Below, piece by piece: positions 6,751-42,023 of a stretch of 64,000 nucleotides of DNA. Each line of letters starts with the position of its first letter. Positions within the stretch are counted from its first letter, which is position 1. The DNA comes from Actinoplanes lobatus. Its GTDB lineage: Bacteria > Actinomycetota > Actinomycetes > Mycobacteriales > Micromonosporaceae. Position numbers and translations under genes: made by a program. Under the pieces are notes generated by a model. That model saw only the letters and a list, made by a program, of their open reading frames with translations. It was not told where the DNA came from and searched no databases. The stretch is taken from NCBI RefSeq assembly GCF_014205215.1, contig NZ_JACHNC010000001.1, forward strand, positions 7,126,501 through 7,190,500, written 5' to 3'.

Positions 6751-6864
6751 GTACCTGCTCGGTGGTGGCATCGGCTCCTTCTCGGCAGGATGCCGTGGAC
6801 CGACATTCGGATTTTGTGGTGGCCGCTTCAAGGTCATCAGCATGGTTTCTGTCCGCGAGGGCCC

Positions 6865-7326
6865 CTACTGGGGTGGGGAGTGGCGTCGTCTGAGTAACCC
6901 GGCGAGCTCGACCTCGATGTTGTGCGCCCACAGCGCGCCGAGTACGCCCCAGCCGGGTGAGGTGGGGTTCGCCGCCGACGGGCCGGCTGGCCGGCTGTCC
7001 GCGACGCGTCGCTGGACGATCTCGTCGATCCACGCCATGACATCGGTGTCCGGATCGACATGGCATCCGGCGAGCCACCACACCTCGATGAAGGTGCCCG
7101 CGAGAATGCCCGCGACCCGATGCTGGTCCGACACCTGGCCACGCAGACCGGGCAACACCAGGCCCGAGCATTGGTCGAACAACTCGGCGAAAGCACCGCG
7201 ATCGTCGTCGGAGATCCGGCGAATCAGCCACCGTAGTTGCGCCGGGCCGTCGCGCGGGCTGGATGACGCGGATCCACGCAGAGGGCATGCCAGACAGAGA
7301 GGACTGCGATGAGTCGATGCTGACAC
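6865..7326 (-). CDS. ECF-like sigma factor region 2, lacking region 4 (possibly degenerate)
   Basis: From a GTG at 7326 the frame encodes 153 residues. Residues about 29-118 follow sigma-70 region 2 of SigK-type ECF factors: LIRRISDDDRGAFAELFDQ, SGLVLPGL, ILAGTFIEVWWLAG, and VMAWIDEIVQRRVADSR, which corresponds to the -10-recognition helix and its following arginine stretch. Region 4 is absent, and the C-terminus ends in unrelated text. The 3' end faces the Asp23 operon. It may be a relic or a sigma-like protein that binds core polymerase without -35 recognition. The start is uncertain, since the frame is open upstream to 7479. Confidence 0.5.
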   Translation of the reverse strand: MSASTHRSPLCLACPLRGSASSSPRDGPAQLRWLIRRISDDDRGAFAELFDQCSGLVLPGLRGQVSDQHRVAGILAGTFIEVWWLAGCHVDPDTDVMAWIDEIVQRRVADSRPAGPSAANPTSPGWGVLGALWAHNIEVELAGLLRRRHSPPQ

Positions 7327-8361: not shown

Positions 8362-8811
8362 ATGCTCACCATCTATTCGCCGCAGACCCCGTCGGCGCAG
8401 TTGCGCATCGACACCAGCAACGTCATGCCGGGCCTCGTCCGGGTCGCCGTGGCCGGAGAGATCGACCTGTCGACCTCCGACGTACTGCACGCCGGGCTGC
8501 TCGCCGTGTTGTCTGCGCAGCTTCCTGAGCGAATCGAAGTTGACCTCGCCAAGGTCACCTTCATGGACTGTGGCGGACTCACCGTTCTCGTCGCCGCGGG
8601 CAAAGCCGCCGCCCGCACGGGATGCCAACTGCGGATCACGAACCCACAACCCATCATCCGTCGAGTCCTCGACCTGACCGGACTACTCGAAATCCTCACG
8701 GCCCGGTTCGATCAGACACTGCCCGTAGCGACCAGCTCCGCACCTGGATCCCCGATCGGACCCACCGCCAGGAACGTGACCCAGTCGGTCGACCTCCTGG
8801 CCTGCGTCTGA
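8362..8811 (+). CDS. STAS-domain anti-anti-sigma factor homologue
   Basis: 149 residues. The STAS fold runs from about 12 to 112: VRVAVAGEIDLSTSDVLHAG, IEVDLAKVTFMDCGGLTVLV, RTGCQLRITNP, RRVLDLTGL. It would bind an anti-sigma kinase to free a stress sigma factor. In SpoIIAA-type members the phosphorylated Ser lies in D-S-S-G; here the stretch is D-C-G-G, so that Ser is Gly and normal phospho-control looks impossible. GGAGGAA 8 nt upstream fixes ATG 8362. The last ~35 residues are low-complexity. Confidence 0.88.
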   Translation: MLTIYSPQTPSAQLRIDTSNVMPGLVRVAVAGEIDLSTSDVLHAGLLAVLSAQLPERIEVDLAKVTFMDCGGLTVLVAAGKAAARTGCQLRITNPQPIIRRVLDLTGLLEILTARFDQTLPVATSSAPGSPIGPTARNVTQSVDLLACV

Positions 8812-10256: not shown

Positions 10257-10679
10257 ATGAGACGCCTGACCTACCTACTGGCCATTCTGGCCACGGTTTT
10301 ATCCACCGCCCTGATACCCGCAGCAGCCTCCGCCTCCGGCCACCACGGGAACCGCAAGTGCGCCTCGGTGCAACCCGAGGCCGGCTTCTACGAGGGCGGG
10401 CGCGTCGGCACCGAGGTCCTCACCGTGCCGGACTCCCGCTGCCGCACCATCAGCGTGTCCCACATCGTAGACCCGGCCAACCCGTCCGACCGCTGCCAGA
10501 CCTTCCTCGTCGGGTTCTACCCGCCGGTCGACGGCAGCCTCACTTACACCGAACCGGTCACGGCGTGCGGCCGGCAACGCACCGTCCTGGCCCGCAACGT
10601 CCCTGACGGCACCGAGTACATCGTCCTGTACGACATCGACTACCTGGAGCAGCGAATCCATTTCCGAGTGCACCACTGA
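10257..10679 (+). CDS. Small secreted protein of unknown function
   Basis: 140 residues with a clear Sec signal peptide (about 1-27: basic MRRLTYLL, hydrophobic core, AAASAS cleavage region). The mature ~113 residues contain four Cys (CASVQPE, DSRCRT, SDRCQTF, VTACGRQ), enough for two disulfides, and alternate short beta-type stretches. I do not recognise the family. CGGAGA lies 10 nt before ATG. It stands alone between transposase fragments, suggesting it arrived or survived as cargo. Confidence 0.75.
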   Translation: MRRLTYLLAILATVLSTALIPAAASASGHHGNRKCASVQPEAGFYEGGRVGTEVLTVPDSRCRTISVSHIVDPANPSDRCQTFLVGFYPPVDGSLTYTEPVTACGRQRTVLARNVPDGTEYIVLYDIDYLEQRIHFRVHH

Positions 10680-10727
10680 CGCACACCGTTATTCGTACAG
10701 TCCCGTCGGCTGAGGACCATTTTCGAC

Positions 10728-10841
10728 TCAGAGCAGACTGTTGATGACGGAGGTCAGCAGGTGCCGCATCAGGTCGGGTGACGCGTCGGTCAGCGCTTGG
10801 CCGAGCAGGCCGGCAGGGTCGATGATGTGTGGTGCGGCCAT
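10728..10841 (-). pseudogene. IS256-family transposase, N-terminal 37 codons
   Basis: Minus-strand ATG 10841 gives 37 residues (IIDPAGLLGQALTDASPDLM, LLTSVINSLL) that match the start of another IS256-family transposase, then TGA and loss of homology. A likely element end lies just upstream at about 10945-10980, where the sequence (TTACACCACTATCAGGGACT) resembles IS256-group terminal repeats. Confidence 0.7.
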
Positions 10842-29998: not shown

Positions 29999-30028
29999 GC
30001 CAGGGCCGCGCGGTGGGCGTCCCGCACC

Positions 30029-30240
30029 TCAGCCCCTGATGGCGGGGTCCTGGCAGAGCGAGGCCAGATCGCCGTCGCGGAGGAGGTCCCGCATCGCCGC
30101 CCGGCGCACCTTGCCGCTGGTGGTCCGGAGCACCGTGCCGGGCCGGAGAAGCGTCACCATGCCGACACCGACCCCGAACTCCCGGCGGTGCGGCGGAAGT
30201 CGGCGGCCAGGATCCGCAGCCCTTCCTCGGGCATGATGGC
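30029..30240 (-). pseudogene. Fatty-acyl-AMP ligase (FadD/FAAL) C-terminal fragment
   Basis: Minus-strand text REFGVGVGMVTLLRPGTVLR, TTSGKVRRAAMRDLLRDGDL matches the end of FAAL enzymes, including the conserved catalytic-loop lysine (TTSGKV). A frameshift near 30185 separates the preceding helix (ILAADFRRTA). Upstream it is replaced by recombinase sequence on the other strand. Confidence 0.75.
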
Positions 30241-30670
30241 GGCGGCGCAGGATCCCGAGCCGGTGGTGAGCGAGCCGGTCCGGCAGGCGCGGGCCCGGCT
30301 GGCCGACTGCGACACGAAACTCGCCCAGTACCGGGCGGCCCTGGACTCGGGGGCGGCCCCTGTGGTGGTCACCGGCTGGATCAGCGAGGTCCAGAACCAG
30401 CGCAGGCGGGCCTCCGAGGTGCTGAACGCGCCCCGACCTCAGCGGACCGCGAGGATGAGCCCGGACCAGATCGCCGACATGGTCGGGCAACTCGGTGACA
30501 TCGTCACCGTGCTGGACGAGGCGGATCCCGAAGATCTGGCCGAGATCTACCGGCAACTCGGGCTCCGGCCGACGTATCATCCGGAAATGCAGAAAGTCCG
30601 CGTCCGGGCACAGCCTGTAGCGGACTCTCATGGGAAACCGTTGGTGTCCGAGGCCCAACACTCAGCTTGA
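30239..30670 (+). pseudogene. Large serine recombinase C-terminal fragment
   Basis: The frame contains RARLADCDTKLAQYRAALDS, GAAPVVVTGWISEVQNQRRR and LGLRPTYHPEMQKVRV, typical of the coiled-coil and end of actinobacterial site-specific serine recombinases. The catalytic resolvase domain and zinc ribbon are missing. The piece joins the FAAL fragment head-on near 30240, marking a recombination junction. Confidence 0.75.
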
Positions 30671-30781
30671 GCACACGGTTATTGCTTCGAAGTCGCTGGC
30701 TCGGAGGTAGCCGGTCGGTCCTCAGCCTCAGCGTCGCTGGGCCAAGCCAGCTCGGCGTTGGCGTTGCCGCTACCCGCCCCG

Positions 30782-30893
30782 ATCACCGACCCGGGCCGGC
30801 TGACCCGACTCGGCATCCGTCGTCGTGATCGCCTCGGTGGCGTCCTCCACGAGTACGAACACGCCGCCTAACCTGCCCGGATGACATTCTCGG
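30782..30893. repeat. Transposase/integrase-like tail, copy 2 of a dispersed repeat
   Basis: Plus-strand frame ends TRLGIRRRDRLGGVLHEYEH-AA with a TAA at 30869-30871, followed by GATGACATTCTCG. The last ~54 bp match 19017-19070. The rest of 30671-30970 holds no gene. Confidence 0.5.
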
Positions 30894-30970
30894 CAGTTAC
30901 GACGTCGTCGTCGGCGGTGCAGGGATCGGGTCTTTTCCAGGCCGCCCGAAACATCTGCCCACCTTCGACA

Positions 30971-31474
30971 CTACGGCTCGGCCGCGTCGTTCATCGCGCG
31001 CTGCTCGAGCAGAGCGTCGAGCAGATCAAGATCGTCGGGGGCCAGCCAGGTCTCCTCCAACGCGGCACCACCGGCCCGCCGGATCGCCGCCGTCAGCGGC
31101 CCGGCCCACAGATGCTCGATCAGGGCGACTGCCGCAGCGGAGCCGACCGGTACCGCCTCAGCCAGGGACCACACCGGCCTCCCGGCAGGATCGGCACCCA
31201 GCGACGGTTCCGCCGAGGAGGCCCCACCGGTAGGCGCTTCGGCATCGCTGTCCGGGTGGGCGAACAACGCGACAGCGATCCCGCCGAGCCCGGCATCGGC
31301 ACCGTCCGGTGCGGCCAGCGTTTCAAGGGTGCCGTCCGCCGCCCGCGAGACGAGCAACAGGTCGACCAGCCGCACAATCCCGGCATTCCGCAGCCGGGTG
31401 AACTCCGAGAGCACCTCGCCGGACAACGCCGGCCGGTCGAAGCCCACGACGAGAACCTGCACTGGTCCCCTCAT
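30971..31474 (-). CDS. DUF6325/DUF1269-type protein
   Basis: 167 residues. It opens GPVQVLVVGFDRPALSGEVL then SEFTRLRNAGIVRLVDLLLV, the usual start of this actinobacterial family, followed by a Gly/Ala-rich middle (GSAAAVALIEHLWAGPLTAA) and an acidic end. The start ATG overlaps the stop of the upstream SHOCT gene. The SHOCT plus DUF6325 pair is common in actinomycetes; function is unknown, perhaps membrane-associated signalling. Confidence 0.85.
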   Translation of the reverse strand: MRGPVQVLVVGFDRPALSGEVLSEFTRLRNAGIVRLVDLLLVSRAADGTLETLAAPDGADAGLGGIAVALFAHPDSDAEAPTGGASSAEPSLGADPAGRPVWSLAEAVPVGSAAAVALIEHLWAGPLTAAIRRAGGAALEETWLAPDDLDLLDALLEQRAMNDAAEP

Positions 31475-31725
31475 TGCTGCATCCGCGTACGCAGCGTGCG
31501 GTACTCCTCGGCGGTGATCACGCCGGAGTCGAGCAGGTGCTGCAGCGCATCCAACGGTTCCGCGGCCTGCCCCGCAGCAGGCGGCCGGGCATCCGGCGGC
31601 CGGGCAGCAGGCGGCGGCGTCGGGTGGGACGCGGCGTAGGCCTGCGCAGGCGTGAACCGGCCACCGTAGTAGGGCACGTTGCCGGTCATCCCGGCACGCA
31701 ACAACTGCCTGGGCACCAACAGCAT
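31471..31725 (-). CDS. SHOCT-domain small protein
   Basis: 84 residues. A short N-terminus (RQLLRAGMTGNVPYYGGRFT) leads to a Pro/Ala-rich linker and then the SHOCT motif LDALQHLLDSGVITAEEYRT. SHOCT modules are short C-terminal oligomerisation or contact segments. Four-base overlap with the DUF6325 gene indicates co-translation. A minus-strand frame ending at 31735, just upstream, has plausible codon use but no recognisable family. Confidence 0.85.
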   Translation of the reverse strand: MLLVPRQLLRAGMTGNVPYYGGRFTPAQAYAASHPTPPPAARPPDARPPAAGQAAEPLDALQHLLDSGVITAEEYRTLRTRMQQ

Positions 31726-31956
31726 CGGCCCTCCTCATCGACGAATCTCCAGCTGACCGGCCCCGGGCGGCAGCGCGTCCGCCCGGACCGCGGATGCCGG
31801 ACGGTCATCCATGATCGCCACGCCGACCGCCCACCATGCTGGCCCCCGCCGGACCTGGGCACATCCTTCGTGCAGGATGGTTCCCGCCGACACCCGCCCA
31901 GCCCGGAAACACCCTCGACATGGCCCGGCGGCGCCGTCCCTCATTTCAACCTGGCT

Positions 31957-32475
31957 GGACGTCTCGCCGGGTGAACCGGGCGAGACCGGCCCAGGTGAGC
32001 ATCGCCGCGGTGGCCATCATGATGATCAGCGGTGTCCACGTCATCTGCTCGGCGGGCAGGATCGGTGTGGCCGAGAACGGCAGCACGTCGAGCACCCAGC
32101 CCGGCAGGTGGAGTGTGTCACCGATCAGCCATGACGATGCAGAGGGCCGCGACGACGCCCCAGGTCACCGGGATCGCCACGCGTGGCAGATAGCCGAACA
32201 GCAGCACGGCGAGCCCGGTGAGCACCATGACGGCCGGCCAATAGACCAGAGCCGTCCCGGCGATCCGCAGGCCCTGCGAGGCGTCACCGATCGTGGCCCC
32301 GTACCCGACGCCGAGCAACCCGCCGCCCAGAGCGAGCAGTGCCGCAGCGCCGACCGTCGGGATCAGCAGGCGTTCGAGCACCCACCGGGTCCGCGACAGC
32401 GCGCCTGCCAGTTGCGGCTTGAGGATCCCGCTCGCCTCGTCCGCCCGCAGCTGCGTGGCGGACTGGATGGCGCTA
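31957..32475 (-). pseudogene. ABC-2-type permease, C-terminal half with a frameshift
   Basis: Minus-strand text RADEASGILKPQLAGALSRT, RWVLERLLIPTVGAAALLAL, GGGLLGVGYGATIGDAS and PVTWGVVAALCIVM is that of antibiotic-export ABC permeases. Near 32115 a shift moves the frame to GDTLHLPGWVLDVLPFSATP, ILPAEQMTWTPLIIMMATAA and a normal C-terminus. The N-terminal half is missing upstream of 32475. Confidence 0.75.
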
Positions 32476-32770
32476 CTGCGCCCTGATCACCGGGCCTGTC
32501 CGCATCGTCTGCCTTGAGCCGCGAGAACCGAACTTCCAGACGAGACCAGCTATCCGGATCTCCGAGGAAGGCGCCTCTTCTGCCGCAGACAATGCGCGCG
32601 TGGTCTCGTCTCTGCCCGTGCCCGGCGCGTCTGCCGGAAACTGGCTGTAGTCGCCGTTGATGACGCAGCGGCTGCTCCGTGGAGGCACTGCGCTGGAGCC
32701 AGAGGTTGAACGGCAGGCTCACCGTTGTTCGTCAGGGCTTCAGGCGCGGCTCCGGTGATGCCTCAGCCGA
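32476..32770. other. Junction region without a clear gene
   Basis: A minus-strand frame (about 32473-32688) has moderately plausible codon use (INGDYSQFPADAPGTGRDET) but no recognised family or ribosome site. Confidence 0.3.
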
Positions 32771-33271
32771 TCATCCGGCCGAGGCGGGCAGGTCGCGGGC
32801 GTTGAACCTGCCTCCCGCGTACGCCTGCAGCACGGCAGCCACTTGGGCGGGTGCCTCGCGAAGCTCGTCGATTTGGATCACCAGGCAGCCGGGGCGGTCG
32901 TCGCCCTTGCGGCGGTAGCCGAACTTGAAGCCGAGCTCGGCGCCCGGCACGGGCCAGATGATTAGGTGCGGGGCCGACGAAGGGTCGACGAAATGGACCC
33001 GTTCAATGCTGACCTCGGCCAGCGCAGCCCACGGAACGTCCGCGTTGAGGCCGTCGCAGCGGATGGAGAGGCCGGCTTCGCCCACAGCCAGCCGGAACGG
33101 GTGGCGGATGATCTGGTAGATCCGGGCGATGCCGAGGAAAGCGAGGATCGCACCCATCGCGTAGGCGATCCATGGCCCGAGGGTGAACTCGTAGCCGATG
33201 AGATTCAGCAGCGCAGGTAAGGCGAACAGCGCGACGCCGAGCAGGACGAGCAGAAGCGCCGTACGGAGCAT
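32771..33271 (-). CDS. Small membrane protein with PH-like C-terminal domain
   Basis: 166 residues: two hydrophobic helices (about 2-22, LRTALLLVLLGVALFALPAL, and 32-52, GPWIAYAMGAILAFLGIARI) and a cytosolic domain RLAVGEAGLSIRCDGLNADV, PWAALAEVSIERVHFVDP, PHLIIWPVPGAELG with the beta pattern of PH-like/YcxB-type domains. Role unknown. ATG 33271 gives the natural N-terminal helix; the upstream open frame lacks homology. The 33272-33615 gap holds no recognised gene. Confidence 0.65.
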   Translation of the reverse strand: MLRTALLLVLLGVALFALPALLNLIGYEFTLGPWIAYAMGAILAFLGIARIYQIIRHPFRLAVGEAGLSIRCDGLNADVPWAALAEVSIERVHFVDPSSAPHLIIWPVPGAELGFKFGYRRKGDDRPGCLVIQIDELREAPAQVAAVLQAYAGGRFNARDLPASAG

Positions 33272-33620
33272 TTTGCCGGTGTTGCGATGAAATTCCACAA
33301 GGATTCCAAGGGCTCGGGAGAAGCGGTGCTGGGACGGTAGCAGCATCGATGACCAGTGACAAGGTGTCAGGGGACCCTTGGCAGGGTCGTTGCGTAGTCG
33401 GGTAGCGGGGATCTGACCAGGGGATTTGATGGGTGACCGGCCTCTATGGAGGCGAAAGAAGCGGGTGAGGCTGTATCGGTGATCATGGACTTGCGACGCC
33501 TGGACCCCAAGTTCGGCGCGGCTGATGGTCATGCCGTCACGGTGAGGGTGACCAGGCCACCAATCAGGACATTCAGCACGCCACCAAGGTCGCAGACGTC
33601 CGCCAGGGTGGGCTCGCGCA

Positions 33621-33797
33621 TGGCTGAGCCAACGGCACCGCTGGAGATGGAAGGACGTCCGCCGCCAGTTCACCATGCCGAACGTCCGGTGGAAGCCAGT
33701 GACGGCCGACGGGATCGAGTTGTTCAACCTGGCCAAGGTGCCGATCACGCGGTACCAGTACCGGGGCGACAAGATCCCGAGCCTCTGGGCTGCCTGA
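33621..33797 (+). pseudogene. Group II intron maturase, C-terminal fragment
   Basis: 58 codons read WLSQRHRWRWKDVRRQF, VRWKPVTADGIELFNLAKVP, ITRYQYRGDKIPSLW then TGA. This is the typical end of bacterial group II intron proteins (LRRRHGWTWK..., PVTRYRWRGNTIPSPW). The reverse-transcriptase domain is absent. It is followed 22 bp later by the intron's domain V, in the normal order for an intron 3' end. Confidence 0.85.
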
Positions 33798-33819
33798 CAC
33801 CGACGGCAGACGCAGTGGA

Positions 33820-33920
33820 GAGCCCGTCACCGGGAGACTGGTACGGCGGGTTCGGCGAGCGGCATGGGAAACGGGCCTGAAGCAACTCCGGCACCGCGTC
33901 CCATGCCGACTTGGCTCGCC
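33820..33920 (+). ncRNA. Group II intron domains V and VI (3' end of intron)
   Basis: 33820-33853 is a 34-nt hairpin starting GAGCCCG and ending CGGGTTC, with the size and terminal sequence of domain V. Then 33854-33920 folds as domain VI: GGCGAGC (33854-33860) with GCTCGCC (33914-33920) and GGCATGGGA (33861-33869) with TCCCATGCC (33899-33907). A GACTT bulge (33908-33912) could hold the branch-point adenosine at 33909. Intron 5' parts are not seen nearby. Confidence 0.8.
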
Positions 33921-34141
33921 TTGGGGCTTCACCCGCTTCAACCGCCTCCACGGAGGCCACTCACCCCACGAAATACCTGGTCAGCAAGTCATGCCTCGAG
34001 AACGCAACAGCCCTGCGCACCACCATGATTGTCGAAGTCAATTTTCGACTCCTCTGCACGGATTTTCGAAGTCCTGTGCACTTGTGCTTGGCGGAGTTGG
34101 GCGGGGTCTCAGGGTCGGATCGTGAGACCCCGTTCCTGGGG

Positions 34142-34294
34142 CTAGCAGCCGATCGTCAGGTAGTCGCGCACCCAGTCGATGAGGGCGCGGGTGGTACCGG
34201 CGAGTAAACCGGTGATCATTGCGAGAGCGATTCGGGTGCGGTGCTCGTTGATATGGTCTCGGCGATGCTGTGGTCGGGCCATCGAATGCTCCAT
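34142..34294 (-). CDS. Small hypothetical protein divergent from the STAND gene
   Basis: 50 residues from ATG 34294 (or 46 from ATG 34282): a basic N-terminus (ARPQHRRDHINEHRTR) followed by a hydrophobic or amphipathic stretch (IALAMITGLLAGTTRALIDW). It could be a short membrane-anchored or membrane-active peptide. It diverges from the large ATPase gene over about 90 bp. I do not recognise the family; its codon use supports coding. Confidence 0.45.
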   Translation of the reverse strand: MEHSMARPQHRRDHINEHRTRIALAMITGLLAGTTRALIDWVRDYLTIGC

Positions 34295-34382
34295 CGGTGT
34301 CCGGAAGGTTGACGGCGAGGCTTGGTGCCGGCTTGCGTTTAGGGTCAAGCCGCCTGGCTGGTGCCAACCTCGGTGCCGATGA

Positions 34383-37300
34383 GTGACGACGAATGCGTTC
34401 ACGGGATGGGTGGGCCATGATGGACAGCCGATGACTACCGACGAGTCCCGACGGGGGATGCGGCCCAGCAGCCGGCCGGTGGAGCGGGCCGAGTTGCCCG
34501 CTGGGCCGTTGCGAGATCTGCGTGATGCTGTCTTTCTGTTGTACGGACAGGCAGGTTGTCCTCAGTTGGACGATCTGGCCACGACCGTCTCGGATGAGGA
34601 CAGCCTTCCGGGCTCGCCGAAGAAGGACGTGATCGGCAGGATCGTCAGCGGGGCCGGGTTGGCATCGCAGCAGGACACCGTAAGCGTGGCGGTCGCGTTG
34701 GCTCGTGCCGCCGACCGCGACGACGTCGCAGCAGTCGCGGAAGGCATCCGGCGGTTGTGGCAGACGGCGTGGATGGCACCCGCACCCCCGCAGCCGGTGA
34801 GGCTAGGACGGCCGGTTGGCGACTGTGACCCGCTGGTGCTGGAGGTGCATCGCTCGATCGAGGTTTCCGGCCACGGTGGCGTGTTGCCGGTGCTGCCGGC
34901 GTATGTCCGACGGGGTCATGACGAGCATCTGCGTCGGATCGCCGAAAAGGTGATCGGCGGCGGGGTGTCCGGGCTGGTGACGCTGGTGGGCGGGTCGTCA
35001 ACAGGTAAGACCCGGGCTTGTTGGGAGCTGGTGCAGTGCCTTGAGCAGCGGCAGCCGGGCCGGTGGTGGTTGTGGCATCCGTATGATCCGAGCCGCCCGG
35101 ACGCGGTGTTGGCGGATCTCGCTCGGGTCGGCCCGTACACGATCGTGTGGTTGAACGAGGCCCAGCTCTACCTCCAGCCGTCGGATGCCCGGCTGGGTGA
35201 GCGGATTGCGTCGGGGTTTCGCACCCTACTTCAGGATCATGAGCGGCAGCCGGTATTGATTCTGGCCACCGTGTGGCCGCGGTACTGGGACGAGTTGACT
35301 ACTCGACCCACCCCTGGGGACCCAGATCGGTACGCGCAGGCCCGGGATTTGATGGCCGGCAGCAGGGTAAGCGTGGCCGACGAGTTCACCCCGGCCGAAT
35401 TGGCCGGGTTAGGGGGTGCCGGGGTGGATCCCCGGGTACGGCAGGCCGCAGCCCACACGGAAGGTGGCCGGATCACCCAGTACCTGGCCGGCGCACCCGT
35501 TCTGGAGGATCGCTACCGGACCGCCCCGCCTGCTGCTTGCGCGATCATCCAGGTCGCCATGGATGCGCGCCGGCTCGGTCACCCATCCACGTTGCCGCAC
35601 ACGCTGCTGGAACAGGCAGTCCCCGGCTACCTTGACGACCACGACTGGGATGCGCTTGGTGAGGACTGGCTGGAACAAGCCCTGGTCTACACCGGCCGGC
35701 CGTGCAACGGCACCCGCGGGCCGCTGACCCGCATACGGCCCCGCCCCGGCCAGCCGACCGCCGACAGTGGGCCCTCCTACCGGCTTGCCGACTACCTGGA
35801 GCAGATCGGCCGCACCGAACGCGCGGCCGTGTTCCCGCCCGACAGCCTGTGGACTGCGTTAACCACGGGCGTTACGGACCCTGCCCTGCTGCGCGACCTC
35901 GGCGAGGCGGCTGAGAGGCGGAGCCGTTATCAGCACGCGATCCGGCTGTACACCCGATCCGCTGACCACGGCGACCCCGGTGCGCTGCGGAGTCTGGCCC
36001 GGTTGCGGAAGCGGGCCGGGGACTTGGCCGGTGCCGAAGCCCTTTACCGGCAGGCCGCCGATCGCGGCGACCCCGACGCGCTGCGGGTTTTGGCCGGGCT
36101 GCGGGAGCGGGCCGGGGACTTGGCCGGTGCCGAAGCCCTTTACCGGCAGGCCGCCGATCGCGGCCGCCCCGACGCGCTGCGGGTTTTGGCCCAGATGAGG
36201 GAGCGGGCCGGGGATCCGACCGGCGCTGAGGCCCTGGCGGTGCAGGCCGCTGACCGCGGCGACCCCGACGCGCTGCGGGTTTTGGCCCAGATGAGGGAGC
36301 GGGCCGGGGACCCAACCGGCGCCGAGGCCCTGTGCCAGGCGGCTGCCGACCGTGGTGACGCCTGGGCGCTGTGGGCTCTGATCTGGTCGCGCGAAGCCGC
36401 CGGAGACACTGCTGGCGCTGAGGCCCTGGCGGTGCAGGCCGCCGACCGTGGCAACACCTGGGCGCTGACGGTCTTGGCCCAGTTGCGGGAGTTGACCGGG
36501 GACCTGACCGGCACCCAAACCCTGTACCAGAAGGCTGCGGACTGCGGCGACATCGAGGCTCTGACGATCCTGGCCCAGGAGGTGATCCGGGACACCGGCG
36601 CCGAGGCCTTGGCAATGCCAGCCGCCGACCGCGGCAACACCTGGGTGCTGACGGTCTTGGCCCAGATCCGGGAGCTGACCGGGGATCTGACCAGCGCTCT
36701 AGCGCTGTACCAGACGGCTGCCGACTGCGGCGACCGCGATGCGCAGATTGTCCTGGCCCGGGAGAAGACCTGGACGCGGGCACTCCGTACCTGGTCCCGA
36801 GACACCGCCGCCGAGGCCCTGGCTACACAGGCCACCGACCGCGGCAACACCTGGGCGTTGGTGCTCCTGGAGTTGTCGCGGGGGACCTGGGACACAGGCG
36901 CTGAGGCCCTGGCGGTGCAGGCCACCGACCGCGGCGATCCCGACGCGCTGCGGCTCCTGGCTCAGATGCGAGAGCGGGCCGGTGACCCGACCGGCGCTGA
37001 GGCCCTGGCGGTGCAGGCCACCGACCGCGGCGATCCCGACGCGCTGCGGCTCCTGGCTCAGATGCGAGAGCGGGCCGGTGACCCGACCGGCGCTGAGGCC
37101 CTGGCAGTGCAGGCCGCTGACCGCGGCAACACCTGGGTGATGCAGAGCCTGGCCCGGTTACGGGAAGAGGCCGGGGACCTGGCCGGCGCCGAGGCCTTGG
37201 CAATGCGGATTGCCGACCGCGGCGACCCCGACGCGCTGCGGGTCTTGGCCAGGCTGCGGGAGAAGGCAGCGGACCTGGCGGGCGCCGAGGCCCTGTACCG

Positions 37301-37547
37301 GCAAGCCGCCGACTACGGCGACCCTGACGCGCTGCGGGCGCTGGCCCAGATGAGGGAGCGGGGCGGGGACACGACCGGCGCCGAGGCCCTGTACCGGCAG
37401 GCCGCCGACTACGACAGCGGCTGGGTACTGACGGATTTGGCCTGGTCGCAGGAGGAGGCCGGGAACACCGCGGGCGCTGATCGGATTTTGAGGTTTGGTC
37501 TGACTGGTTCTGGTGAGATTGCGACCGGGCTGGACTTCGGCTCGTAG
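34383..37547 (+). CDS. STAND-like P-loop ATPase with a long TPR/Sel1-like repeat array
   Basis: Up to 1054 residues. An N-terminal helical domain (about 37-130: LPAGPLRDLRDAVFLLYGQA, TVSVAVALARAADRD) resembles the HTH/effector-like domains on actinobacterial TPR proteins. The NTPase core follows with Walker A GGSSTGKTRACWE (about 203-216) and Walker B-like YTIVWLNEAQLYL, then a helical segment to about 510. From about 520 to 1030 about 16 units of roughly 32 residues (DRGDPDALRVLAQMRERAGD, PTGAEALAVQAA) form a superhelical sensor. No toxin-type domain is obvious. The start is uncertain: GTG 34383, ATG 34431 and ATG 34458 are in frame. NLR-like defence or signalling is inferred from the architecture. 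Confidence 0.85.
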   Translation: MTTNAFTGWVGHDGQPMTTDESRRGMRPSSRPVERAELPAGPLRDLRDAVFLLYGQAGCPQLDDLATTVSDEDSLPGSPKKDVIGRIVSGAGLASQQDTVSVAVALARAADRDDVAAVAEGIRRLWQTAWMAPAPPQPVRLGRPVGDCDPLVLEVHRSIEVSGHGGVLPVLPAYVRRGHDEHLRRIAEKVIGGGVSGLVTLVGGSSTGKTRACWELVQCLEQRQPGRWWLWHPYDPSRPDAVLADLARVGPYTIVWLNEAQLYLQPSDARLGERIASGFRTLLQDHERQPVLILATVWPRYWDELTTRPTPGDPDRYAQARDLMAGSRVSVADEFTPAELAGLGGAGVDPRVRQAAAHTEGGRITQYLAGAPVLEDRYRTAPPAACAIIQVAMDARRLGHPSTLPHTLLEQAVPGYLDDHDWDALGEDWLEQALVYTGRPCNGTRGPLTRIRPRPGQPTADSGPSYRLADYLEQIGRTERAAVFPPDSLWTALTTGVTDPALLRDLGEAAERRSRYQHAIRLYTRSADHGDPGALRSLARLRKRAGDLAGAEALYRQAADRGDPDALRVLAGLRERAGDLAGAEALYRQAADRGRPDALRVLAQMRERAGDPTGAEALAVQAADRGDPDALRVLAQMRERAGDPTGAEALCQAAADRGDAWALWALIWSREAAGDTAGAEALAVQAADRGNTWALTVLAQLRELTGDLTGTQTLYQKAADCGDIEALTILAQEVIRDTGAEALAMPAADRGNTWVLTVLAQIRELTGDLTSALALYQTAADCGDRDAQIVLAREKTWTRALRTWSRDTAAEALATQATDRGNTWALVLLELSRGTWDTGAEALAVQATDRGDPDALRLLAQMRERAGDPTGAEALAVQATDRGDPDALRLLAQMRERAGDPTGAEALAVQAADRGNTWVMQSLARLREEAGDLAGAEALAMRIADRGDPDALRVLARLREKAADLAGAEALYRQAADYGDPDALRALAQMRERGGDTTGAEALYRQAADYDSGWVLTDLAWSQEEAGNTAGADRILRFGLTGSGEIATGLDFGS

Positions 37548-37609
37548 ACCTCCGGACTTGTGCGCTGGGGTACGCCACTGCCACGCCGTGCCTGGAACCG
37601 AGGGACAAG

Positions 37610-37912
37610 TTGGACACCGGCGTAGTCTCGGCCACAGTGGCGTACGAACCGGAGGGCGTCCTCGATTGGCATGCGATCGATTGGCGTGCCCGCGAGGATC
37701 AGGTACGGCGTACGCGTCAGCGGATCCTCACGACGTCACGGGCGCAGGACACATGCGGGTCCGGAATGCACAGGTCGATGCTCCAGTTCCGGTCGAACAC
37801 GCTGCTGGCGGTGCGGCGGGTCACGGGGGCCGACGCGGGGCGTTTGGCGGCGGGCGTGGACGGCAGGATCGTTCCCGATGACCAGGACAAAGCCGTGCTG
37901 GCGCGCGGTTGA
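37610..37912 (+). pseudogene. Group II intron maturase, N-terminal fragment
   Basis: Text VLDWHAIDWRAREDQVRRTR, then FRSNTLLAVRRVTGADAGRL and AAGVDG corresponds to the start of group II intron reverse transcriptases (WNDIDW...VRRLRQRI, RVT-NKGKRTPGVDG). The middle (TSRAQDTCGSG) is altered and the frame ends at TGA soon after the first conserved block, so no RT domain follows. It is the complementary end of the type of protein whose C-terminus lies at 33.6 kb, but the order rules out one simple intron. Confidence 0.75.
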
Positions 37913-37933
37913 GCCTAATTGGAGGAGAATGAG

Positions 37934-38788
37934 ATGTCTGTTCCAGGGGCGCCGGATCAGGCTGGCGGTGGTGAGCCTGCGCGGTCGGTGCTATGGGTTG
38001 AGGTCTATCTCGACCAGGTCGACATGGCGGTGGGGCAGGCGTGGCACGGCCTCGCCGCGGAGGCGTTGACGCCGATGCTGCAACCGGCCGGTGCTCCCGC
38101 GTTCAGACGTCGTTACAGCGGTTTCCGCGACCCCGACGGTGACGGTTCGATGCACTCGGTTCGGGCCCGATCCTGGGCCGGGGTCCTGCTTCCGACCATG
38201 TCGCAGGCTCACGGTAGTTGGGGATACGGCGACGACCCGTCGCACGGCCCGCTCGACCTGGTCCAGCTCGGCGCCTTCCGGGAGAGTTCGGCCGCGCCAT
38301 TCATGCACCTGGAGATCCGGGCCGGCCTGGCCGACCCGGCCGCGATGCCCGAACTGGCCGACGCTCTGATCGGCGTGGTCCGGCAGATCGGGGAGCGTGC
38401 CGACGTGGCGTACGGGGAGATGTGTTCCCATCCGCTGCGCAGGCCGTGGACCACCCTCGACCGGGCGTTGCGCCGCCGGGACCGGGAGTCGTTGCCGCAG
38501 AGCCGGCAGGTTCTGCGCGGCTACGAGTGGGTCACGATGTGCCCGGCCGAGCTGGCGAAGTCGCTCGGCGAGGCCAAGGGTCTGCGGGACACCGGGGCCT
38601 TCGCCGAGGTCGTCGAGCTGGCGACGGGCGGTCTGCTGCTGCGGGCCACCCGGAGCCCGCTGGAGTACGACGACGCCGCGGTCCAGCGGGTCTTCGAGGC
38701 GGTGCGCCCGGTGCTGCCGCCGGGCCGGCCCCGGCATCTGGAGGTCGAGACGCTGCGGCACGTGGTGATGGCGGACGCGTCCGCCTGA
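37934..38788 (+). CDS. Unrecognised protein, possibly immunity-type (DUF3396-like)
   Basis: 284 residues, soluble, no signal peptide. N-terminal part: SVLWVEVYLDQVDMAVGQAW, PLDLVQLGAFRESSAAPFMH and LEIRAGLADPAAMPELADAL. C-terminal part: LRGYEWVTMCPAELAKSLGE, LRDTGAFAEVVELATGGLLL and RVFEAVRPVLPPG. The WVT-CP-EL-LG pattern recalls DUF3396-type immunity proteins, but this is tentative. GGAGGAG 7 nt upstream marks ATG 37934. It overlaps a following truncated gene (TGATG). It lies about 390 bp downstream of the STAND gene, separated by an intron fragment. Confidence 0.65.
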   Translation: MSVPGAPDQAGGGEPARSVLWVEVYLDQVDMAVGQAWHGLAAEALTPMLQPAGAPAFRRRYSGFRDPDGDGSMHSVRARSWAGVLLPTMSQAHGSWGYGDDPSHGPLDLVQLGAFRESSAAPFMHLEIRAGLADPAAMPELADALIGVVRQIGERADVAYGEMCSHPLRRPWTTLDRALRRRDRESLPQSRQVLRGYEWVTMCPAELAKSLGEAKGLRDTGAFAEVVELATGGLLLRATRSPLEYDDAAVQRVFEAVRPVLPPGRPRHLEVETLRHVVMADASA

Positions 38789-39068
38789 TGGGTGCTTCGA
38801 GCTGGTGGTACGTGACACCGTTCCACCCGGATCTCAACGTGGTGCTGCGGGACCTGCACGAGCGGGTGCTGGCGGATCATAGGTACTGCCTGGGTCGCTA
38901 CTCGAGCGGGCCTGCGTGCGCACCGAGCTGACCCGGATCGCGCGGCTGCCGAGCAGCACGGTTATCCCGCACGCTCAACGGCTTCCCGACGACGAGTGGG
39001 TTCAGCTGGTGCTCGGGCAGCTCACCGGCGTCAAGTCCGCGCTCGATCTACTCGTCCGCGGCGCATGA
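38788..39068 (+). pseudogene. Small gene in operon with the preceding one, frameshifted
   Basis: ATG 38788 overlaps the upstream stop. The first frame reads GASSWWYVTPFHPDLNVVLR, DLHERVLADHRYCLGRYSSG, and after a shift near 38915 the coding text continues as RTELTRIARLPSSTVIPHAQ, RLPDDEWVQLVLGQLTGVKS to TGA 39066. Together about 92 residues. Family not recognised; probably an accessory to the 284-residue protein. Confidence 0.5.
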
Positions 39069-39738
39069 CGACCATTGAGGGTGCGGACTGGGCCACCTAC
39101 GAAAGCGGCTGCGTGCGCGAGGAGACGCTGCGGATCACCCGGCTGCTGGACACCGTGCTCATCCCGCACCTGAAGGGCCATCCCGACGACGGGTGGAAGC
39201 TCCTCGAACCGCTGCTGCCGCCGCCGGCCAGCACCACACCAACGGGTAGGCATCCTGAGGCGTACCCGCGCCGCGAGATCGTGGACGGTATTCGCTACCT
39301 GGTCGACAACGGCTGCAAGTGGCGAGCCCTGCCCTCGGACGTTCCGCCTTTCAAGACCGTTTACGGGTTCTTCGCCCGCTGGGCCAAAGCGGGCGTGCTC
39401 GAGCACGTCCGTGACCAGCTGCGGCGCCGCATCCGCGTGGACGCCGGCCGGTACCCCCGCCCGGTCACCGCCATCATGGACTCCCCAAGCGTGAAAGCCG
39501 CCGAGACCGTCAGCCGGGACACCCGAGGATTCGACGGCGCGACGCTGATCAACGGCCGGAAGCGGACCTGATCGTCGACACGAAGGGCCTGTTGATGACG
39601 GTGAAGGTGACCCCGGCGGACGTCACCGACTGCGATGCCGCCCGCGACATGCTGCCTGAGCTGCGCAAGCACAACCCGGACCTGTCGTGGCGCCAGGAAC
39701 GCTGTCTGACCTGCTTCCGTCAGTTTCTCGGGCGGTAG
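39065..39738 (+). pseudogene. IS5-family transposase, frameshifted and truncated
   Basis: The conserved N-terminal block (DGWKLLEPLLPPPASTTPTG, YPRREIVDGIRYLVDNGCKW, RALPSDVPPFKTVYGFFARW) and the first DDE block (TAIMDSPSVKAAETVSRDTR, INGRKR) are present. A one-base loss near 39568 shifts the frame to LIVDTKGLLMTVKVTPADVT, DCDAARDMLPEL, after which the end is aberrant (CLTCFRQFLGR). The usual N-terminus is replaced by about 35 residues of other origin. Confidence 0.8.
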
Positions 39739-39831
39739 GGCGCCTAACGCGAGTGACTGGCGGGCTAATTCGTTGATGTTCGGTGTCTCCAGGACCCGGC
39801 GAGGCGGCGAGAAAATCTAGGTCTGAATCAC

Positions 39832-39859
39832 TAGACATTCCCGCCGGACCTGCTAGTGT
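39832..39859 (+). promoter_or_regulatory. Promoter reading toward the MerR/HspR-like gene
   Basis: TAGACA (39832-39837) and TAGTGT (39854-39859) with a 16-bp spacer fit a housekeeping promoter; the region also contains CACTAG/CTAGTG arms around the spacer. A start near 39866 would leave a leader of about 560 nt before ATG 40428. Confidence 0.55.
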
Positions 39860-39865
39860 TTCTCC

Positions 39866-40406
39866 CGTTGACAGCAGAGATCAGCTAAGACGCAGACGAA
39901 GCACGCCGAGCGTTAAGCAGGGCCCGGACCCTGTGCCGTGGCTCGCTCGGCACCGCAGCGGGAAGTAAGCATCTCCGCACGCGGTAAGGCAAGGCACATG
40001 GAAGTGGAACGTAAGACCCTGACGTAGTTCCAGGTCAGGGCAAGGCGGGCCGATGCTGGTTTCGGGGCTCGCCTGGCAGGACAGTTCGTCGCACGTGCAC
40101 GGGGCCATGAAGTCGCGTGGGGCTCCGACACCGGCGGACGGCACAACAAGTAGCACAGCAATCGGAAGCAGAGGAAAGGGAGGGCACGAACACCGTTGGA
40201 TCGCCCGTCGCTGGAACGCATTCGACTCCGGCGCGGACACCGCAGTTTCCATCGAACGAGAGGTGGTCTCCGGTCACGCTTATGCGGTCCTCGCACCCCT
40301 ACCGCCGACGGCGGCCAGGTGCGGATACGACAACCCGACGAACCAGTCGGTAGATGGTGTTTTGACCCCGTAACCCTGGGCCCCGGCGCTTTCTGCGCCG
40401 GGGCCC
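39866..40406 (+). ncRNA. Candidate structured leader or independent small RNA
   Basis: No convincing protein gene fills this stretch. It contains successive hairpins, e.g. CAGGG/CCCTG near 39917-39932, GTGCCG/CGGCAC just after, and CCCTGAC (40017-40023) with GTCAGGG (40034-40040). It ends at a perfect 12-bp stem-loop 21 nt before the MerR start. It could be a long regulated 5' leader or a separate noncoding RNA. A 106-codon frame (40053-40373) is open, but its third-position GC is low for this genome. Confidence 0.4.
40378..40406 (+). terminator. 12-bp hairpin just before the MerR-family gene
   Basis: GGGCCCCGGCGC (40378-40389) and GCGCCGGGGCCC (40395-40406) form a perfect stem with loop TTTCT. 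It ends 21 nt before ATG 40428, too close to be incidental: a terminator for the upstream RNA or an attenuator or thermosensor for the gene. Confidence 0.7.
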
Positions 40407-40427
40407 TCGTCATGGAGAGGAACCTGT

Positions 40428-40748
40428 ATGGCCCAACGCGACGACATGTTCGGCGACGATGACTACCCCGCCTACACGATGGGCCGCGCCGCGGAGATCA
40501 CCGGCGCCTCGCAGGACTTCCTGCGACGCCTCGACGAGGCGAAACTGATCACCCCGACCCGCTCGGCAGGCGGGCACCGCCGCTACTCCCGCCACCAGCT
40601 GCGCCTGGCCGCCCGGGCCCGGGAGATGGCCGAGCAGGGCACCGCCCTGGAAGCCGCCTGCCGGATCATCATCCTCGAAGACCAACTCGAAGAAGCCCTC
40701 CAGCACAACCAGGACCTCCAGCGCGAACGGCCAGCGGACTCCGTCTGA
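40428..40748 (+). CDS. MerR-family regulator (HspR-like)
   Basis: 106 residues. The winged-helix MerR N-terminus YTMGRAAEITGASQDFLRRL, DEAKLITPTRSAGGHRRYSR is followed by HQLRLAARAREMAEQGTALE and a coiled-coil (IIILEDQLEEALQHNQDLQR). This is the layout of HspR, the repressor of heat-shock genes in actinobacteria. GAGAGGAA precedes the ATG. It converges with the Hsp18-regulator gene and lies 0.8 kb from hsp20. A role in this heat-shock locus is inferred from family and place. Confidence 0.85.
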   Translation: MAQRDDMFGDDDYPAYTMGRAAEITGASQDFLRRLDEAKLITPTRSAGGHRRYSRHQLRLAARAREMAEQGTALEAACRIIILEDQLEEALQHNQDLQRERPADSV

Positions 40749-40805
40749 CTCACCGCCCGCACGCGATCCTTCTCCGCCACGAGAGGGACGTGAAGGTCGG
40801 CTCGG

Positions 40806-41462
40806 TCAGTCGGGCGCTCGGCGCTGATGCTCGCGCCCGCGCTGGGTGACGCGGCGGATCTGGTCGGCGTCATCGGTGACGCTGGCGACCCGCCCGGCGA
40901 GCGGGGCGTGCCGACTTTGCAGGTATGCGTGGGTATCACTGAGCAGCGGGAGCAGGGCGGCCGGATCACTGTCACCGAGGGCGTGGTGCAGCCGGTCGAG
41001 GCTGGCCTGAGCGTCGGGGCCGAGGTCGGTCAGGGCGGTGATCTGACCGGCGAGTTGCCGCAGGCCGGCGCCGTTGGTGCGGGCCCAGCCGGTGACCGCT
41101 CGAGCACCCGCGCGGCGGTCTCGTTCGGCGGCCACACGCTGGTCGGCGGTGGCGGTGGCGTCGTCCTGTTCGCTGCGGCGGATCCGCAGGTAGCGGCGTT
41201 CCGCCGCCTGGCGGCTGGTGACCCCCATCGCGGGGGCGAGTTCGGCCCAGGCGGCCCCGGCGGCACGGGCGGTGGCGATCAGCTGCGGCTCGCAGATGTC
41301 GAGGCGGTCACGCAGGTGGCGGAGCGCGATCAATGCGCTCAAGGCCGCCTGGCCGGACGTGGCGGTGGGCTCGGGACCAGTGGGTGCGGTCGGTCTGCTG
41401 CTGGTCGCGGCCAGGATCAGCGCGAGCGCGGCCTGCGCCTCGCGATGCTCGGGAACATCCAT
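40806..41462 (-). CDS. Putative Hsp18 transcriptional regulator
   Basis: 218 residues, helical. The N-terminal half (SALIALRHLRDRLDICEPQL, IATARAAGAAWAELAPAMGV, TSRQAAERRYLRIRR) contains a helix-turn-helix like those in actinobacterial proteins annotated as HSP18 transcriptional regulators. The C-terminal half is a helical dimerisation or sensing domain (ITALTDLGPDAQASLDRLHH). It is divergent from hsp20; the 117-bp intergenic region carries a RheA-type inverted repeat, so it likely represses hsp20 and itself, with heat relieving repression. Confidence 0.8.
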   Translation of the reverse strand: MDVPEHREAQAALALILAATSSRPTAPTGPEPTATSGQAALSALIALRHLRDRLDICEPQLIATARAAGAAWAELAPAMGVTSRQAAERRYLRIRRSEQDDATATADQRVAAERDRRAGARAVTGWARTNGAGLRQLAGQITALTDLGPDAQASLDRLHHALGDSDPAALLPLLSDTHAYLQSRHAPLAGRVASVTDDADQIRRVTQRGREHQRRAPD

Positions 41463-41497
41463 GCCCTACTCCGTCGTCTTTTGAGTGACGTTTCGCT

Positions 41498-41516
41498 TGT
41501 CGTCTTTCCGATGACA
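41498..41516. promoter_or_regulatory. RheA-type operator upstream of hsp20
   Basis: TGTCGTC-TTTCC-GATGACA differs at one base from TGTCATC-N5-GATGACA, the inverted repeat bound by the temperature-sensing repressor RheA at Streptomyces hsp18. It lies in the divergent intergenic region, 36 bp from the regulator start and 64 bp from hsp20. Confidence 0.75.
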
Positions 41517-41579
41517 TGCTACAACGGTGGGTAAGCGCATTGGCACCCAGTTGTTGAACAGATTTCGGAGGTGGAACCG

Positions 41580-42023
41580 ATGTTGGTGCGCACTGACCCG
41601 TTCCGGGAACTCGACCGGCTCACCCGGCAGATGTTCGGTGACCCCCAGCCCGGTACCTGGTCTCGGCCGGTCGCGATGCCGCTGGACGCGTACCGCACAG
41701 GCGACGAGTTCATCGTGGCGTTCGACCTGCCCGGCGTGACCCCGGACAGCATCGATGTCGACGTCGAGCGCAACGTGCTGACGGTCAAGGCCGAACGCCG
41801 GCCGCTGGACCTCGGCGACAACGCGCAGATGCAGACGTCGGAACGGCCGCTGGGCGTGTTCTCCCGCCAGCTGATCCTGTCCGACATGCTCGACAGCGAG
41901 CGCATCCAGGCCGGCTACGACAACGGTGTGCTCGTCCTGCGGATCCCGGTGCTGGAGAAGGCCAAGCCCCGCAAGGTCAACGTCGCGGTCAACACCAGCG
42001 AACCGGCCGCGATCAACGCCTGA
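41580..42023 (+). CDS. hsp18: Small heat-shock protein Hsp20/alpha-crystallin family
   Basis: 147 residues. The alpha-crystallin domain spans about 33-130: AYRTGDEFIVAFDLPGVTPD, SIDVDVERNVLTVKAERRPL, SERPLGVFSRQLILSDMLDS, IQAGYDNGVLVLRIPVLEKA, with the C-terminal LRIPV anchoring strand. It forms oligomers that hold unfolding proteins. GGAGGT 7 nt upstream fixes ATG 41580. A RheA-type operator lies in the promoter region, so control is probably heat-inducible derepression. Confidence 0.95.
   Translation: MLVRTDPFRELDRLTRQMFGDPQPGTWSRPVAMPLDAYRTGDEFIVAFDLPGVTPDSIDVDVERNVLTVKAERRPLDLGDNAQMQTSERPLGVFSRQLILSDMLDSERIQAGYDNGVLVLRIPVLEKAKPRKVNVAVNTSEPAAINA

Follow-up and report, generated by a model that had tools for sequence, protein, structure and literature searches.

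The window analysed here is a stretch of 64,000 nucleotides from the 10.4-Mb genome of Actinoplanes lobatus (positions 7126501-7190500). This report concerns two genes that lie back to back about the middle of it. One codes for a large switch protein of the STAND type, which consists of an N-terminal domain (N-domain), a P-loop ATPase core and an array of tetratricopeptide repeats (TPRs). The other codes for a very short membrane peptide and is read in the opposite direction. The features of the locus are collected in Table 1.

Table 1. Features of the locus, in positions of the window (its first letter is position 1)
Feature	Position	Strand	Basis
Group II intron, 3' end, with the C-terminus of its maturase (33582-33797) and terminal intron DNA; flanking remnant outside the unit	33582..33911	+	
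Small membrane-peptide gene, 46 aa, family A	34142..34282	-	Recurs beside N-domain genes; coding selection
Spacer of 148 nt between the divergent genes, candidate for a shared promoter/operator; contains a Shine-Dalgarno-like motif for the peptide, a GC dyad and a GTnnCGAY box	34283..34430	.	
STAND-like switch protein, 1038 aa: N-domain, AAA_16-like P-loop core, 16 TPR units	34431..37547	+	
N-domain, N1 type, about 119 aa, the part tracked by the peptide	34431..34787	+	Alignment
Walker A motif GGSSTGKT	34989..35012	+	G-K invariant in core alignment
Walker-B-like stretch TIVWLNEAQ	35139..35165	+	Glutamate at least 90% conserved in core alignment
TPR array, 96-bp period, about 15-16 copies	35959..37409	+	TRF; Pfam TPR families
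Group II intron maturase N-terminus; flanking remnant outside the unit	37610..37912	+	RVT_N, E 2.3e-14
Neighbour gene, 284-289 aa, judged outside the unit	37919..38788	+	

A first-pass annotation, made from the letters of the DNA alone, had described a protein of 1054 residues. The open reading frame (ORF) of 1054 codons is real (34383-37547, + strand), but the protein is probably shorter. Homologues begin at about M-(A/S/T)DES, and the likely start is therefore the ATG at 34431. Both the P-loop and the Walker-B-like stretch named in that annotation are present; their conservation was read from an alignment of 37 homologues. All 37 aligned cores match AAA_16 weakly in Pfam (best E 2e-7). The match of the window protein itself falls under the curated cut-off, and TPR families are found in it. 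The annotated count of about 16 repeat units was also right, each unit being 32 aa long; the program TRF reports 15.1 copies. A PDB sequence search gave no chain with sequence similarity to the switch protein.

Related cores bear exchangeable N-domains, among them N1 (the type in the window), N6, HTH_31 and PNP_UDP_1, the last of these in protein P0077. The distribution of the protein is accessory. Homologues at E ≤ 1e-60 occur in 39 of 354 genomes of the family Micromonosporaceae, in a scan that scored at most four candidates per genome. The genome of A. lobatus itself holds a paralogue (C1:10.26 Mb), which is 57-62% identical across the main matched part. Three of the features by which STAND proteins are recognized, namely a Walker A motif with a Walker B acidic residue, C-terminal repeats and an exchangeable N-domain, can be read in the predicted protein and its homologues. 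Together with the AAA_16-like core and the patchy distribution, they support the NLR-like plan that had been proposed for it.

The short divergent protein with a hydrophobic stretch, likewise seen at first pass, is a real gene. It is listed among the predicted proteins of the window's own contig (P0169), and an alternative upstream ATG at 34294 would lengthen its product to 50 aa. The peptide has a basic N-terminal tail and a hydrophobic helix with a GxxxG motif, followed by R-A and W. The two glycines, the arginine and the alanine are invariant or nearly so and the tryptophan is commonly kept. Thus the conserved part is the helix, and the C-terminal tail varies. Across 78 aligned rows the mean hydropathy of the best 18-residue window is 1.64 and the mean net charge is +2.9. 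Such features would fit a self-associating membrane peptide.

Two Pfam families were considered as the identity of the peptide and rejected. None of 45 peptides matches EACC1 (PF19953) at E ≤ 1, and profile comparison with hhalign gives a probability of 4-9%. DUF4235 is matched weakly by 17 of the 45 (best E 2e-4), which we read as a common membrane-helix pattern.

Since the frame is short and high-GC genomes contain many open frames, its apparent conservation could in principle reflect a divergent promoter region that merely chances to be open. The ratio of nonsynonymous to synonymous differences (pN/pS) is relevant here. In the helix block of 12 Micromonosporaceae sequences it is 0.55 in frame, compared with 0.98 and 1.86 in the other frames. 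In seven Streptomyces sequences it is 0.51, compared with 0.83 and 1.48. The changes are concentrated at third codon positions. Whole Micromonosporaceae peptides, tail included, give a higher value (0.72 over 66 pairs), which would favour a chance frame; two single pairs give 0.40 and 0.48. Of 45 divergent pairs, 41 have a Shine-Dalgarno-like motif ahead of the peptide frame, against 11% expected. The frame is also kept in Streptomyces loci where its orientation has flipped, and at two Streptomyces plasmid loci RefSeq lists the peptide as a 40-aa coding sequence named "hypothetical protein". The frame is under coding selection, and the absence of a gene is extremely improbable; in our judgement that explanation is already contradicted.

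The region between the two genes is conserved as well. Over 29 Micromonosporaceae pairs the spacer has a median length of 147 nt (interquartile 141-149, range 87-218), and its length is alike whether the core is of the AAA_16, NB-ARC, NACHT or NPHP3-like type. A GTnnCGAY box, defined post hoc from the alignment, occurs in 34 of 45 pairs compared with 3% of shuffles. The ATPase gene has a Shine-Dalgarno-like motif in only four of the 45 divergent pairs, suggesting that its mRNA may be leaderless.

Pairing of the peptide with the N-domain

The peptide recurs with one type of N-domain, whatever the core. Upstream of the paralogue, for instance, lies a short divergent frame whose product is plainly related to that of the window. 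To follow the pairing through the family, 40 loci were fetched; one of them (L103) has no match to the core, so that with the window and the paralogue 41 loci with the core are available. The N-domain of the window is present in 25 of these. A profile built from 16 peptides finds the peptide at 23 of the 25, including six that are neither seeds nor copies of seeds. At the 16 loci with another N-domain, the best match to the profile has E 0.21. At one locus (L073, in G091) the peptide is found 3' of the STAND gene rather than upstream.

Profiles of the N-domain and of the peptide were also scanned separately over the same 354 genomes, with at most 12 and 20 candidates per genome. A peptide (E ≤ 1e-6) lies within 600 bp of 31 of the 35 N-domain matches of at least 80 bits, and in all 31 it is on the opposite strand. 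The co-occurrence survey called for at first pass thus bears out the short gene as a recurrent neighbour. The figure measures co-location rather than discovery, as many of the loci also stand behind the profiles.

Conversely, the scan gave 52 peptide matches at E ≤ 1e-6, of which 32 belong to N-domain matches of at least 80 bits. As we read them, twelve of the remaining 20 overlap the frame of another P-loop gene or are no more than 300 bp from it (co-directionally at L164). The last eight comprise a second copy (G086), a peptide 1.4 kb from a STAND gene (G081), one at a contig edge (G254) and five that either adjoin genes lacking a P-loop or have no explanation. By locus, L169, L172, L177, L179 and L181 adjoin genes without a P-loop or a contig edge. 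The matches at L176, L183, L194 and L195, the last adjoining what we read as a ClpC-like frame, were dismissed as false or unexplained.

Some of these loci have features of their own. At L169 and L181 (G295 and G178) the peptide is divergent from frames of 421 and 435 aa that have an HTH-like (helix-turn-helix) start and no Pfam match; their C-terminal part reads as phospholipase-D-like. At L187 (G086) two peptide copies about 2 kb apart (8662-8793 and 10618-10743) accompany one STAND gene.

An example of a change of core is L103, where the N1 domain stands on an NB-ARC-TPR core and is likewise accompanied by a divergent peptide. This pairing on another core indicates that the peptide follows the N-domain. 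In Pfam, ten partner proteins give NB-ARC three times (L166, L103, L191), NACHT with HEAT repeats (L184), NPHP3_N (L186), FHA (L172) and, below threshold, nSTAND5 with TPRs (L164); three have no match. The pair of N-domain and peptide is found on the NB-ARC proteins of L103 and L191 and on those of L184, L186 and L172. In the FHA case (G202) an N1-like domain stands on an FHA domain (5761-6750) with a divergent peptide (6803-6910), which makes a sensor without an ATPase. The first-pass suggestion that the N-terminal domain or a neighbouring gene might supply the effector therefore pointed in the right direction: the short neighbour is conserved as a partner, and it tracks the N-domain.

Three further loci show other arrangements. 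At L192 (7475-8668, in G199) a single 398-aa frame combines an N1 domain with apparent membrane segments, and no separate peptide is present at the locus; it may be a natural fusion of both partners. L197 and L198 represent an NB-ARC/AAA and TPR protein of about 950-980 aa with a distant N1-like domain, found in many genomes of the genus. No peptide was detected at either locus.

The changes of core also bear on a different explanation of the small gene. RRNPP receptors are HTH-TPR proteins. In a quorum-sensing-like pair of the RRNPP kind, the small gene would code for a secreted propeptide, and its processed tail would be the ligand of the TPR domain. A propeptide gene that adjoins the gene of its intracellular receptor is the RRNPP plan, as far as the accessible text of PMC10075063 sets it out, and 16 TPR units are present here. 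Yet the peptide tracks the N-domain and not the repeats: it is kept beside the HEAT repeats of the NACHT protein and beside the FHA protein. The conserved part of the peptide is moreover its helix, while the tail that would be the ligand is variable. A signalling pair of this kind is very improbable.

The pairing extends beyond the family. The core alignment was scanned over 84,980 species, and 80 of at least 464 relatives were analysed. Twenty of the 80 are from Micromonosporaceae, and several of these repeat loci behind the first peptide profile. The N-domain is present in 45 of the 80 and absent from 35. A profile made from Micromonosporaceae peptides only finds the peptide near 27 of the 45 carriers and near none of the 35 others (Fisher p 1.2e-9). 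Outside Micromonosporaceae the same profile gives 16 of 33 against 0 of 27, which is the count free of circularity. With all profiles the result is 37 of 45 against 0 of 35; this is partly circular, the Streptomyces profile and an iterated profile having been built from counted loci. Loci within a family are related by descent, so that none of these counts represents independent events.

In this core-based scan the peptide occurs at Streptomyces, Actinomadura, Kitasatospora and Nonomuraea loci. A class-wide scan of 394 genomes with a peptide profile built from one family gave matches in six genomes at E ≤ 1e-4; among the six are the window's own genome and one with a convincing match outside the family (G536). 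On Streptomyces plasmids 84 records matched, six of them across at least 80% of the query, and the first four plasmid loci taken all carry both N-domain and peptide. Phage records contained no match to the N-domain and core.

Other N-domains have small partners of their own. Clustering of the small hydrophobic frames upstream of 51 loci with other N-domains gave three further families, B, C and D, at 13, 7 and 5 loci, some loci being present twice in the set. In the 80-locus set they occur at 21 loci, always divergent. Among N6-type N-domains six have B and two have C; among other types one has B, five have C and six have D. One N1 locus, L266, has a match to D; this match and that to B at L249 are weak. 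Of the 35 homologues without N1, 20 carry a protein of family B, C or D, and in 58 of the 80 homologues a member of one of the four families adjoins the start of the gene. Since the loci counted also supplied the profiles of B, C and D, the existence of these families is shown more firmly than their frequency. Families A, B and C have no profile similarity to one another. Between A and D the probability of similarity is only 14%, and D may be a distant relative of A.

Proposed mechanism and alternatives

When the N-terminal end of the switch turns up on another protein, the peptide tends to accompany it, and this points to the peptide as the part being controlled. The switch protein seen at first pass is half of a two-gene unit of soil actinomycetes. 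The explanation that we prefer, tentatively and at slightly less than even confidence, is a sensor/effector unit in which the STAND switch controls a dedicated membrane peptide, probably via the shared promoter. The TPR array would bind a trigger, and the ATPase core would change state. The N-domain would then work at the promoter region between the two genes, which both share, so that more of the 46-aa peptide is made. The peptide would enter the cytoplasmic membrane, self-associate through its GxxxG helix and impair the membrane, and this damage would arrest or kill the cell. The trigger, DNA binding by the N-domain, membrane action and toxicity are inferred parts of the model.

As the N-domain is the constant part of the pairing, it is the probable recognizer of the peptide or of its gene. 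Promoter control is our first choice because the region between the genes is nearly constant and contains a conserved box, and because another group of N-domains matches HTH_31 weakly (8 of 10 rows, best E 4e-6; nine of the ten rows are from peptide loci).

Direct binding is kept open by the exchange of both partners together and by the fusion at L192. In such a model the N-domain would be an adaptor that binds the peptide itself, and the active STAND oligomer would nucleate assembly of the peptide in the membrane, much as NLR adaptors recruit effectors. The shared promoter would merely balance the two partners. Peptide type and N-domain type change in step, as expected of cognate binding, and the orientation of the peptide gene can flip. 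Direct contact would, however, not need the conserved intergenic box or a nearly constant spacing whatever the core, and other partners of the peptide have HTH-like N-domains. A direct adaptor is on balance doubtful, less probable than the promoter model.

Several observations weigh against the promoter-controlled unit. The N1 domain has no convincing match in Pfam or PDB, and in profile comparison it resembles HTH-type N-domains only weakly (hhalign probability 1-25%), so that an HTH-like fold for N1 is at best faintly indicated. At L192 the fusion of the N-domain to apparent membrane segments fits direct contact better. Of the 35 strong N-domain matches in the family, three have no detected peptide and one has its peptide 1.9 kb off, and with all profiles 8 of the 45 wider carriers have no detected peptide. 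In nine of the 80 loci, all from Streptomyces, the peptide is co-directional and upstream of the gene. Among homologues without N1, 15 of 35 show no small membrane partner, and 41% of the 78 peptide rows fall under hydropathy 1.6. Finally, no enrichment in defence genes was found among the neighbours (129 ORFs, 22 loci).

This last point concerns the role in defence that the first-pass annotation had thought possible, and which the neighbour scan does not bear out. At E ≤ 1e-25, PADLOC models give about six distinct matches among the 129 neighbour ORFs and about eight among 119 control ORFs, the latter from 20 regions chosen by hand and not at random; distinct proteins were counted from per-family tallies. 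Of the six, a reverse transcriptase and JetC come from locus L009, whose PtuA, PtuB, JetD and helicase genes were left out. The window protein, its 50-aa peptide, the 284-aa gene and the paralogue have no PADLOC match at E ≤ 0.01. The surroundings of the paralogue match models for Septu (PtuA, PtuB), a Mokosh-like helicase, Wadjet (JetC3, JetD3) and a reverse transcriptase, which we read as a group II maturase. Two of the four plasmid loci have defence genes next to them: cas genes at the first, a restriction endonuclease and an ABC-three-component gene at the second. The other two have no defence genes alongside.

An alternative is an ordinary developmental or stress regulator, comparable to MalT, whose peptide is a harmless small membrane subunit of some regulated envelope process and has no part in conflict. 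The neighbour scan shows no enrichment, no PADLOC model matches the protein, and the host genomes are those of differentiating actinomycetes. Such a regulator is less easily reconciled with the patchy presence in one family, the presence on Streptomyces plasmids, the attachment of the N-domain/peptide pair to several NLR-like cores and the Septu-, Mokosh- and Wadjet-type genes next to the paralogue. It is improbable. That the system serves antiphage defence is conjecture; its anatomy indicates a membrane peptide under the control of a sensor.

In more general terms, and as tentatively as the promoter-controlled unit itself, these loci may follow an NLR-like plan in which the killer is not fused to the switch. 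Small membrane proteins would be encoded back to back with it, matched to its N-domain and exchanged with that domain as a cassette. This would cover three or four families of small proteins (A, with its GxxxG helix, and B, C and D). The cassette of family A has been seen on AAA_16, NB-ARC, NACHT, NPHP3-like and FHA sensors.

Flanking remnants and neighbouring genes

The block had been described as bracketed by mismatched group II intron fragments. On the 5' side the maturase C-terminus is confirmed. The genome holds two intact introns to whose C-termini it is 53% identical, and the DNA from 33630 to 33911 shares 70% identity with the 3' ends of these two introns. The accompanying "domain V/VI" rests on this DNA match, for Rfam reports no intron that passes its threshold anywhere in the window, nor one in 30000-42000 at E ≤ 5. 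On the 3' side the maturase N-terminus was found as annotated. Among four intron loci compared, its sole significant match is a different intron (39%), so that the fragments are indeed mismatched. That the block has been moved, as the earlier annotation held, is plausible. A 59-bp inverted repeat (76%; 33413-33471 and 33926-33984) encloses the intron remnant on the 5' side.

The unrecognized 284-residue gene is also real and has no Pfam match better than E 0.1. A protein search gave 21 proteins including its own, two of them named "DUF3396 domain-contain". It was rejected as a partner, having no match (E ≤ 1e-4) at the other loci examined, and the co-occurrence suggested for it thus fails; it looks like an unrelated neighbour. 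Beyond 38800 lies the remnant of an IS4/5-type transposase (DUF4096).

Further along, positions 39800-40420 form a stretch of about 600 nt without an obvious gene, which ends in a GC-rich hairpin and is followed by a MerR-type gene. It resembles sites in 21 of 40 genomes searched, its own included, at 72-86% identity across long stretches. One of the 21 has a short weak match only, and there is often more than one match per genome. Rfam gives no match, even at E ≤ 5. The stretch is a conserved element that occurs repeatedly and may be a structured RNA in several copies or a repeat element; its identification as an intron 5' end is unsupported.

Comparison with known systems

The literature searched, mostly without subscription papers, contains no recognized description of STAND proteins that have a small, divergently encoded membrane peptide as a partner. 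In it the nearest published idea is the two-gene membrane system based on EACC1 ("System 4"; Kaur 2020, PMC7159879). As described in the accessible text of that paper, EACC1 resembles the peptide in being actinobacterial, in having a single hydrophobic helix with small residues mid-helix and in adjoining a large variable conflict protein. It also has alpha/beta flanks and mostly a caspase partner. Here the partner is a STAND protein without a caspase (Pfam scans of the window protein and the scanned partner proteins gave no caspase family), and the peptides do not match EACC1 in Pfam.

RRNPP pairs, in what can be read of PMC10075063, likewise combine a receptor gene with an adjacent small gene. 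In the present system the pairing tracks the N-domain and not the TPRs, and there is an ATPase core. The DUF397/HTH toxin-antitoxin-like pairs couple genes of small proteins to the gene of an HTH protein. DUF397 is described with beta-strands, at least in the available part of the source (PMC7159879), whereas here there is one hydrophobic helix, and the N-domain stands on a STAND switch. DinQ (PMC3567139) is a toxic peptide alike in size, in its single helix and in the membrane action proposed here. According to the accessible portion of that report it is under antisense RNAs; here no RNA family was matched and a large switch protein is proposed as the control.

In many bacterial NLR-like proteins no effector is visible. 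Should it be encoded apart from the switch, as a membrane protein of 40-60 aa that annotation often passes over or leaves as "hypothetical protein", a class of "orphan" STAND proteins becomes testable. The cassette logic of cognate N-domain and peptide would then provide a simple scheme for grouping orphan STAND proteins. Small hydrophobic toxins, among which TisB is a further single-helix peptide, are mainly associated with type I toxin-antitoxin loci; the proposed unit would tie them to NLR-like sensing.

The bacterial NLR-like STAND NTPases, such as bNACHT and Avs, are the broadest comparison. With these proteins (NACHT, NB-ARC, AAA_16-TPR) the present one has in common the P-loop switch, the C-terminal repeats, the exchangeable N-domain and the accessory distribution. 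It differs from them in that no enzymatic effector is seen in the window protein, and its partner is a separate, mostly divergent membrane peptide of 40-50 aa that follows the N-domain.

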